A DNA stretch of 64,000 nucleotides, from positions 8,246,001 through 8,310,000 of the forward strand of contig NZ_CP036426.1 of assembly GCF_007752535.1 (NCBI RefSeq). Direction: 5' to 3'. The notes under the pieces are model-generated. The model saw nothing but the letters and a program-made list of their open reading frames with translations, did no database searches and had not been told where the DNA came from. The position numbers were made by a program, and so were the translations under genes. The stretch is from Tautonia plasticadhaerens. Lineage in GTDB: Bacteria > Planctomycetota > Planctomycetia > Isosphaerales > Isosphaeraceae. Numbering within the stretch: position 1 is the stretch's first letter; the number at the start of each line of letters is the position of its first letter. Positions 53,489-55,059 of this stretch are shown here, one piece after another.

Positions 53489-53626
53489 CGAGTCGGCCCG
53501 GTTCGGCATCGGGCCTGCACCGTGGGGGACCGGGACGTAGGATCGACCGGCCGGGGAGGCTCGGCCCGGCCCGTCGACCCCGGATCCCCGCCGACGCCGA
53601 GTCCCGACCCCGACCCCGACCCCGCC

Positions 53627-54250
53627 ATGCCCGACTTTCCCCGACATGACGACGTGAACACGACGAATCCCCCCGATCTTCCGCTGTCGGCCGATCGGCG
53701 GGAGCGGCTGCTCCGCCTGGCCCGCCTCGCCGTCTCTTCGGCGGTGGCCGACGGCGTCCCGGAGCCTCCCCCGCGAGACGACCCGGAGCTGCTCCGCAGG
53801 AGGGCCGCCTTCGTGACGCTCCGGAGCCGAGGCTCGGGGGAGTTGCGCGGCTGCAAGGGGGAGGCGACGGCGCGGAGGGCCCTGGTGGACTCGGTGATCT
53901 CCGGGGCGGTCGGCGCGGCCACCGACGACCCCCGCTTCCGGCCGGCCTCGGTCGACGAGGTGCCGGGGCTCCGGATCGAGATCAGCGCCCTGACCGAGCC
54001 CCGGCCGATCCTCCCGGATCGGATCGAGCTGGGCCGTCACGGGCTGATCCTCGCCCGGGGCGGCCGGCCGCTCGGGCTGCTGCTCCCCCAGGTGCCGGCA
54101 CAGCACGGGATGGACGTCGCCGGCTTCCTGGAGGCCCTGGGCCGGAAGGCCCGGGTCCCCCGTGCCCGCTGGGCCGACGACCCCTCCCTCGTCCTGCTCG
54201 GCTTCGAGGCCGAGGTCTGGGCCGAGCCCGACCCGACGCCGGGAGGCTGA
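53627..54250 (+). CDS. amrA: AMMECR1 / AmmeMemoRadiSam system protein A
   Basis: This 207-residue protein matches AMMECR1 over most of its length. RRERLLRLARLAVSSAVADG, FVTLRSRGSGELRGCKGEATARRALVDSVISGAVGAATDDPRF, and GLRIEISALTEPRPILPDRIELGRHGLILARGGRPLGLLLPQVPAQHGMDVAGFLEALGRKARVP are diagnostic. The hallmark LRGCIG appears here as LRGCKGE. In many genomes this gene clusters with AmmeMemoRadiSam B (Memo) and a radical SAM gene; neither is in the window. Its function is unknown, though a role in nucleic-acid- or RNA-linked chemistry has been proposed. ATG 53627 is used; ATGs further in would cut off helices. Confidence 0.88.
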   Translation: MPDFPRHDDVNTTNPPDLPLSADRRERLLRLARLAVSSAVADGVPEPPPRDDPELLRRRAAFVTLRSRGSGELRGCKGEATARRALVDSVISGAVGAATDDPRFRPASVDEVPGLRIEISALTEPRPILPDRIELGRHGLILARGGRPLGLLLPQVPAQHGMDVAGFLEALGRKARVPRARWADDPSLVLLGFEAEVWAEPDPTPGG

Positions 54251-54299: not shown

Positions 54300-54486
54300 G
54301 CGATCGTCCCGGCTCCGGGGCCCCACGCCGCGCTCCATCCCGCCGCCGTCGCCCGTCGATCGCCCGTCGGGGCCGGCCGCGAGGTTGACGATCCGGGCCG
54401 ATCGGCCCAGGATAGATCCCGGAAGTCGAGCGACCGATCGGCGGGCGGGGGCGGCGGGCCCTCGACCGACCGAAGGAGAAAGACCC

Positions 54487-55059
54487 ATGACGAAGATCGC
54501 CCCATATGCCTGGGGCCTGGCCGCGCTGGTGGTCGCCGCCTCGGGGGCGGCGGCCACCTTGCACGCCCAGGGCCTCGATTCCGGGCCGAAGCTCGGGGAG
54601 CCCGTCAACGCCTTCGACGTCTACGACGTCACCGGGCCGAACAAGGGCAACGAGCTCTGTTATCGCTGACGCTACGGTGCCAGCCCGGTCGTCTGCATCT
54701 TCACGCGGACGACAAGCGGGCCCTTGACCGGTCTGGTCAAGGCCGTCGATGAGAAGATCGCCGAGAATCCCGAGTTGAAGGCCTTCGTCGTCCGCCTGAC
54801 GGACACCGACGGCGAGGCCGAGGTCGTCAAGGCCCTGCGGGACCTGGCGGCCGAGCACGGCATCGAGCACGTGCCGTTGACGCTGATGGAGGACCCCGCC
54901 GGCCCTCCCAGCTACAAGATCGCCGAGGGCGCGGAAGTCACCGTCCTGCTCTGGCGTCAGATCGAGGTGGAGGCCAAGCACGCCTTCGCCCCCGGGCAGC
55001 TCGACGAGGAGGGCGTCAAGCGCGTCCTCGCCGACCTGCCGAAGATCCTGGACGAGTGA
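54487..55059 (+). CDS. Secreted thioredoxin-like protein with in-frame TGA at a CxxC position; candidate selenoprotein
   Basis: Read through TGA 54667-54669, this gives a 190-residue protein. It has a signal peptide (GLAALVVAASGAAATLHAQG), then PVNAFDVYDVTGPNKGNELCYR, the TGA as codon 61, RYGASPVVCIFTRTTSGPL, and a thioredoxin-like body TGLVKAVDEKIAENPELKAFVVRL..GIEHVPLTLMEDPAGPPSYKIAEGAEVTVLLW. Both halves share one frame with no other lesion. The TGA occupies the second position of a C58-Y-R-x61 motif, where I would expect cysteine (CYRC in related planctomycete proteins, from memory), so selenocysteine would yield a CxxU redox centre. A strong hairpin follows the TGA at the expected distance. 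The alternative is a simple TGC-to-TGA nonsense mutation leaving a 60-residue fragment. No Sec machinery gene lies in the window. AGGAG precedes the ATG by about 10 bases. Confidence 0.7.
54683..54721 (+). promoter_or_regulatory. Putative bacterial SECIS hairpin after the in-frame TGA
   Basis: Starting 13 bases after the TGA, GTCGTCTGC (54688-54696) pairs with GCGGACGAC (54705-54713), nine pairs with one U-G wobble, closing an 8-base loop at 54697. GCCCG (54683-54687) and CGGGC (54717-54721) extend the stem past an AAG bulge. Opening the top three pairs gives a 14-base loop starting UG, 24 bases after the TGA, which fits the bacterial SECIS rule of a G in the first two loop positions. In GC-rich DNA hairpins are common, so this supports rather than proves the idea. 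Confidence 0.5.

Follow-up and report, generated by a model that had tools for sequence, protein, structure and literature searches.

The bacterial selenocysteine insertion sequence (bSECIS) was modelled in the Fig. 2 legend of a review (PMC13188914) as a hairpin with a loop of 3-9 nt, a stem of 4-16 bp and 16-37 nt between the UGA and the apical loop. According to the same review, a G lies in the first two positions of the loop, which mostly follows N1-G-[G/U]-N-N2 with N1 and N2 paired, and certain bSECIS do not conform to the model. Cys genes that carry remnant SECIS are already known (PMC1794560). For planctomycetes, PMC4807772 reported selenocysteine (Sec) genes in two organisms; I. pallida and G. 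obscuriglobus were reported there to have sel genes. The closest described proteins, the peroxiredoxin-like (Prx-like) and redoxin Sec proteins (UxxC, PF00578 and PF08534; PMC13188914), share a thioredoxin (Trx)/Prx fold and a Sec in a two-residue redox motif with the protein described here. This protein is encoded at 54487-55059 on the forward strand of a 64,000-nt window, the whole stretch of DNA that was analysed, which corresponds to C1:8246001-8310000 in the 9.4 Mb genome of Tautonia plasticadhaerens. The comparisons among genomes make it nearly certain that the gene encodes a selenoprotein. We also have strong confidence in the reading as a whole, namely that the product is an exported Sec protein of an uncatalogued family, with a two-hairpin SECIS and the activity of a thiol/selenol oxidoreductase.

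The in-frame TGA and its distribution among genomes

A single frame ran from the ATG at 54487 across the TGA at 54667-54669 to the closing stop codon, TGA, at 55057-55059, giving 190 codons, one of them for Sec, and the stop. An earlier sequence-only reading of the window had described this frame and placed the TGA at the second Cys of a CxxC motif, and both statements held. The translation was MTKIAPYAWGLAALVVAASGAAATLHAQ...GNELCYRU61RYGASPVVCIFTR...KILDE, with the motif C58-Y-R-U61. The motif is opened by the Cys58 codon TGT (54658-54660), which was invariant in the alignments A1 and A3. Among 72 homologues with the motif, the aligned codon 61 was TGA in 48, TGC in 20 and TGT in 4, so that the in-frame UGA aligned with the redox Cys of homologues, as is expected of a selenoprotein. 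The Cys homologues of A1 with CYRC, from Planctomycetaceae-like genomes, were 34-43% identical to the window protein. In the 72-row table, L009 was represented as the window itself and near-identical rows were kept (L111-L113, L128-L131, L018/L095). The repeat-contig loci (L091, L092, L093, L098, L100, L102, L105, L106, L108, L115 and L121), the near copies L023 and L037, the motif-less L033 and L084, and most further Cys matches from a scan of 391 genomes were left out of it.

The TGA form followed the presence of SelB. Homologues were found in 25 of 40 genomes (the genome itself and 39 relatives), with the close ones matching on both sides of the TGA, and the scan of the named genomes yielded 41 loci of the family. 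TGA stood at the motif in 16 of the 40 genomes, its own included, and every one of them was among the 24 in which SelB scored over the cut-off. In the 16 genomes without SelB, the TGA form was found in none and the Cys form in 7 (Fisher p 1.2e-5). One TGA, in G038 C3, fell close to the end of a homologue that has no CxxC and was excluded from the TGA-form count. Across 391 genomes of the phylum, a homologue was present in 73 and SelB in 233; within the 73, SelB was found in all 13 genomes with the TGA form and in 16 of the 60 with other forms only (p 8e-7). The sequence-only reading had named close relatives with TGC as the result that would speak against Sec. In the three same-genus genomes searched, all five other copies had TGA at this codon, and the ratio of nonsynonymous to synonymous substitution (dN/dS) after the TGA was 0.35-0.62 against these copies, which showed that the protein was constrained, though not tightly.

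Sec forms were also found beyond the planctomycetes, in an Armatimonadota bin (L123), in two bins labelled Acidobacteriota or Blastocatellia (L129 and L131) and in the unclassified bins HR08 and HR10 (L128 and L130); the Armatimonadota loci L125 and L126 carried Cys instead. On a tree of 69 of the 72 rows, from which three short Sec rows were left out, at least six changes of the Sec/Cys label were required. Adjacent Sec and Cys copies were seen at L114 (2234-3507) and L082 (1078-2216; minus-strand coordinates), and tandem Sec copies in the same-genus genomes G002 and G003 (regions L088 and L089). In a bin named Candidatus Kuenenia stuttgartiensis (L103), a Sec copy grouped on the tree with G008 of the window's family, a placement that suggests misbinning, mislabelling or transfer.

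The Sec machinery of the genome was consistent with these results, and the finding of selA, selB, selD and tRNA-Sec supported the selenocysteine assignment of the sequence-only reading. The tRNA-Sec at C1:6016686-6016781 matched RF01852 with 65.9 bits, ARAGORN concurred (tca anticodon), and the next three RF01852 matches in the genome were tRNA-Ser or tRNA-Leu. The selB gene (C1:2123100-2124998, 348 bits) adjoined selA (C1:2121692-2123047, 513 bits), and selD (C1:1193090-1194028, 352 bits) contained an in-frame TGA of its own within NCAGUAGK; all four genes were on the minus strand. Two adjacent AhpC/TSA genes (L138, C1 ~498.4-499.2 kb) also had an in-frame TGA, within ADWUPFC and ASWUAGC, and are likely further selenoproteins of a type already known. 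Besides the window gene, the genome thus has three or more likely Sec genes of established types, which served as internal controls. Among the relatives, one genome carried a selD of the TGA form (L167, G009:C208) but no SelB match above the cut-off; this assembly has about 600 contigs, and selB may be missed or broken.

Two abutting hairpins downstream of the TGA

In the minimum free energy (MFE) fold, hairpin I (HP I, 54683-54721) abutted hairpin II (HP II, 54722-54742) with zero bases between them. HP I was located exactly where the sequence-only reading had drawn a hairpin, and it was moderately better than synonymous recodings of this gene (z -1.93, p 0.032). That reading had also taken HP I for the SECIS, with a G early in its loop, and this G was not confirmed. 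Neither of the first two bases of the MFE loop, AUCUUCAC, was a G, and a G came second only after three upper base pairs were opened. Among 41 rows examined, loops of HP I (AUCUUCAC, CUUCGC and similar) satisfied the bSECIS G rule in 3; the alignment excluded 7 Sec rows that were divergent or gapped, as well as 6 Cys rows. HP I is probably not the target of SelB, and HP II, which had been overlooked, fits the loop rule.

Selection on the fold of HP I was evident in the Sec genes as opposed to the Cys genes. Relative to synonymous recodings, the mean z of HP I was -2.00 in the 48 Sec genes (p<0.05 in 31) and -0.06 in the 24 Cys genes (p<0.05 in 3), and the two groups differed with a Mann-Whitney p of 2e-7. 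A scan of Sec rows with 42-nt windows gave the lowest mean z at +15 (-1.80) and +45 (-1.47), positions being counted downstream of the UGA. The remaining scored Sec windows ranged from -0.79 to +0.33, with two windows overlapping the TGA left unscored, and the Cys rows from -0.41 to +0.41.

HP II reads CCUUGACC-GGUCU-GGUCAAGG, with the loop GGUCU at 54730-54734, and agrees with the bacterial SECIS loop rule. Cys or TGA at the codon, together with a conserved hairpin, was what the sequence-only reading had named as support to be sought in an alignment of homologues; the codon was TGA or Cys in all 72 rows, and the conserved SECIS-type hairpin was HP II. The loop rule was satisfied at HP II (AGUUU, GGUCU, AGUCU, AGGUU or AGGCU) in 47 of 48 Sec rows and in 1 of 24 Cys rows; the Cys homologues belong to the same family with Cys for Sec, and HP II was missing in 23 of the 24 Cys rows. 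The key G was at +62 in 44 rows, the window included, at +65 in one and at +71 in two. When any hairpin of at least 6 bp with a bSECIS loop was sought between +16 and +100, all 48 Sec rows had one (HP II in 47), compared with 1 of 24 Cys rows and 2.4% of synonymous recodings. The mean z of HP II was -1.52 in Sec rows (p<0.05 in 21 of 48) and +0.28 in Cys rows (0 of 24), a difference with p 1e-9.

Covariation was analysed in 27 rows of less than 90% identity; they came from 42 Sec rows, 6 of the 48 having been put aside. Two-sided changes were seen at 6 of 7 stem pairs and 98.9% of 189 cells were paired; none of 500 shuffles and no slid control attained either figure, and RNAalifold predicted HP II on this alignment. 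Codon choice was biased within the hairpin: TTG made up 34 of 41 Leu codons at +55, whereas elsewhere in the same genes, away from the hairpin region, it made up 51 of 560 (21 of the 24 Cys rows entered the table of Leu codons and loops). An 18-nt pattern of HP II had 17 matches in the 40 genomes, all within TGA-form family copies and present in 15 of the 16 TGA-form genomes, and the reversed control had 0. The covariance model R1 scored four held-out Sec rows at 43-51 bits and a fifth (L080) at 25, with Cys rows at 39 or less; it separated Sec from Cys copies imperfectly because coding homology was also scored. Across its own genome, this gene scored 82 bits with R1, and nothing else exceeded 22. 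A search of 54640-54800 against Rfam with E up to 10 returned two unrelated weak matches only. In the sequences compared, these results showed that the UGA form is confined to SelB genomes and that a hairpin with a bSECIS loop is kept in Sec copies and missing from nearly all Cys copies.

The control genes of T. plasticadhaerens carried SECIS-type loops similar to that of HP II: GGUCC with the G at +34 in selD, GGUCC with the G at +22 in PrxU1 and GGUCU with the G at +25 in PrxU2, these last being the two AhpC/TSA genes. The SECIS loop of E. coli fdhF is also GGUCU-like. In the 40 genomes, 24 selD loci included 15 TGA-form genes, and all 15 had a hairpin of the same type, with 5-7 bp and the G at +33 or +34; in a single gene the loop was AGUUU, identical to an HP II loop. 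In the Tautonia selD genes (L133, L155, L159 and L164), a small hairpin folded between the UGA and the SECIS hairpin, whose loop began at +33; intervening hairpins of this kind may be commoner in this group.

HP II shares with the canonical bSECIS of PMC13188914 a stem within 4-16 bp and the loop N1-G-[G/U]-N-N2. In the canonical element, however, the G lies 16-37 nt from the UGA, whereas in HP II it lies at +62, nearly double the permitted distance, with another hairpin between. SelB carrying Sec-tRNA(Sec) would bind HP II some 60 nt past the UGA, and the family-wide pattern makes HP II very probably the SelB-binding hairpin. Removal of the 39 nt of HP I from the path puts the G at +23, and a bridging role of HP I is therefore proposed: folded in the intervening stretch, HP I would shorten the path to an effective distance of 62 - 39 = 23 nt, within 16-37. 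On balance this role is favoured for HP I, less firmly than that of HP II.

Predicted fold, family and neighbouring genes

The AlphaFold 2 model of the window protein (mean pLDDT 90.0, pTM 0.82) had a central sheet with flanking helices, and together with the matches by Foldseek (best E 9e-8) and VIA-align it indicated a thioredoxin-like fold. The closest solved folds were FetE, DsbE/ResA-like proteins, Tpx and Bcp, with Z of 15-17 (best Z 16.7, root-mean-square deviation (rmsd) 2.3, 137 aligned residues). For those with Z>15 the folds were alike, with rmsd 2.3-3.2 over 133-149 residues, and the identity to the window protein was 9-16%. In the model, C58 and U61 lay at and in a short helix (residues 59-63) that precedes the strand 68-73. 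In the AhpC/TSA, redoxin and thioredoxin families the catalytic Cys or Sec follows the first core strand. Here, residues 74-80 (RTTSGPL) after strand 68-73 contained no Cys or Sec, and the catalytic Cys positions of the AhpC/TSA proteins of this genome aligned to S77 and L80 (hhalign probability 77%, E 2e-5). Prx-like and redoxin Sec proteins, two of which are encoded in this genome, differ likewise, since they put U first (UxxC) and belong to PF00578 or PF08534, whereas the window protein has CxxU before the first core strand and reaches no Pfam cut-off.

The predicted signal peptide (54487-54567), noticed in the sequence-only reading as well, ended after LHA (residue 27) at an A-x-A-type site, between LHA and Q, as judged by eye, and on this ground the protein was placed outside the cytoplasm. 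The low model confidence at residues 1-30 agreed with such a peptide. It is probable that the protein is a Trx-fold oxidoreductase working there. The exported Trx/Prx-fold protein would act as a thiol/selenol oxidoreductase in which Sec61 attacks and Cys58 forms a selenenylsulfide with Sec61, the redox pair sitting before the first core strand and not at the usual site after it. Other parts of the gene were read from the sequence. A likely ribosome-binding site, AAGGAG, was located at 54473-54478, 8 nt ahead of the ATG, and a standard listing of open reading frames broke the gene into 94 codons from a TTG start, ending at the TGA, followed by 111 codons.

Searches with family models gave few matches. 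For the window protein, Pfam returned PF15623 alone (E 0.05, under its cut-off) and NCBIfam no family at E 0.01. Over the 33 members of A3, Pfam gave one match to PF00578 (E 0.026), and NCBIfam gave three weak matches to deiodinase_rel (best E 1e-4) and one each to two unrelated models. A sequence search of solved structures with A3 gave six weak matches, the best of which (E 0.0095) was a designed protein. The family was not recognised among the 119 prokaryotic selenoprotein families of a 2026 table (PMC13188914 Table 1). The NCBIfam, TIGRFAM and Pfam models of the families in that table were unmatched by the window protein, the cd-, PTHR- or sequence-less entries lying beyond this test. In term searches, "Planctomycet" was absent from the main text of PMC13188914 and planctomycete terms from the text of PMC5029168. 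The family appears new with respect to the family models and the PMC13188914 table, and the candidates from two planctomycetes in table S9 of PMC4807772 might include it. The sequence-only reading had called the Sec form undescribed to its knowledge and the family one of planctomycetes; the first part agrees with the 119-family table, and the second was too narrow given the Sec forms in Armatimonadota and in bins labelled Acidobacteriota.

An AMMECR1-domain gene (53522-54250, same strand; PF01871, E 5e-38) lay just upstream of the Sec gene. One related gene was found near the family in 7 of 42 loci (the 41 named loci plus the window), at both Sec and Cys copies and in two phyla (L109, L111, L112, L113, L115, L125 and L126). 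The five of these seven neighbours that were scanned (L109, L112, L115, L125 and L126) were beta-propeller/c-type cytochromes; those at L125 and L126 also matched MauG above the cut-off. A related upstream gene was also present at four Cys loci, and the one scanned (L118) was an AhpC/TSA peroxiredoxin. The cytochrome and peroxiredoxin neighbours hint at periplasmic redox work without fixing a substrate. The neighbours fix no function because too few of them recur.

Weighing of the readings and their implications

Several observations weigh against the proposed reading. The spacing of 16-37 nt was not kept by HP II, only 1 of the 48 Sec rows being within range, so that a role of HP II in SelB binding would break the known rule. 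One Sec copy, L080 (G107:C80), had no HP II and carried a bSECIS-type hairpin at +21 in its place, so that SECIS of either kind may exist within the family. Conversely, the Cys copy L127 (6100-6177, TGC) retained HP II with the loop AGGUU; it resembles a gene that recently exchanged Sec for Cys and still carries a remnant of its SECIS. One of the five covariation measures, the number of further pair types (7), was not above the shuffles. The register of HP I shifted between relatives, and RNAalifold gave no HP I on the alignment. The hairpins of this gene taken alone were unremarkable (p 0.032 for HP I and 0.065 for HP II), and the case for an RNA signal consequently rests on the family. Concerning the function, no Pfam or NCBIfam domain in the window protein backed a thiol oxidoreductase, and the neighbours in the window (AMMECR1 and an alpha/beta hydrolase) were uninformative, no gene of the window's own locus recurring at the other loci.

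The same TGA might be explained in other ways. In an ordinary bSECIS, SelB would bind HP I, and HP II would be an accessory that stabilises the structure or causes a pause. In favour of this, HP I lies at the usual distance, with its loop from about +28, and selection acts on it in Sec but not in Cys genes. However, it is HP II that shares its loop type with the selD and Prx SECIS of the same genome and with all 15 TGA-form selD genes, that is more conserved than HP I, and that was the sole hairpin found by RNAalifold; moreover, the Sec copy lacking HP II had its fitting loop at +21. Binding of SelB to HP I is therefore considered unlikely, though it is the most probable of the alternatives, and HP II is preferred as the binding hairpin.

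The remaining alternatives concern the codon itself. One base suffices to turn TGC into TGA, and many planctomycete homologues have Cys, so that a nonsense mutation or a sequencing error in an ordinary Cys protein could have produced the TGA. This explanation is hardly credible, since the same TGA was found in the 16 genomes noted above as well as in bins labelled Armatimonadota and Acidobacteriota, and the constraint on the protein after the TGA and the Sec-linked hairpins contradict it. A read error is unlikely because other genomes have the same TGA, and a pseudogene or sequencing error was rejected on the conservation of the TGA across genomes. Plain readthrough, with the UGA read as another amino acid and no selenium involved, would likewise yield a full-length protein, but the TGA form was restricted to SelB-positive genomes, the column was otherwise Cys, and the tRNA with a UCA anticodon was present as tRNA-Sec. 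We regard such a selenium-free reading as very improbable. A changed genetic code was rejected, because this gene and several of its relatives also end in TGA and the in-frame use of that codon was tied to SelB.

The selenoprotein reading, with HP II as the proposed target of SelB, leads to a wider proposal. The family is missing from the family models and from the searched table, and its TGA form occurred in 16 of the 40 genomes as well as in bins from further phyla. We consider it likely, with less confidence than for HP II itself, that the two hairpins represent a distinct class of bacterial SECIS, in which the hairpins abut, the SelB-binding one lies at +62, and the fold of the bridge is kept with its sequence left free. 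This class would serve a family of at least three phyla whose Trx-fold redox pair has moved to a position before the first core strand. Searches of open-licence papers listed no title or abstract opening that named a displaced bacterial SECIS of two hairpins. Within one genome, three genes obeyed the spacing rule by which bacterial selenoproteins are sought and this gene did not. If the bridge reading is true, programs that enforce a spacing of 16-37 nt would miss such genes, further selenoprotein genes may have escaped notice for the same reason, and the working distance of SelB from the UGA would become directly testable.
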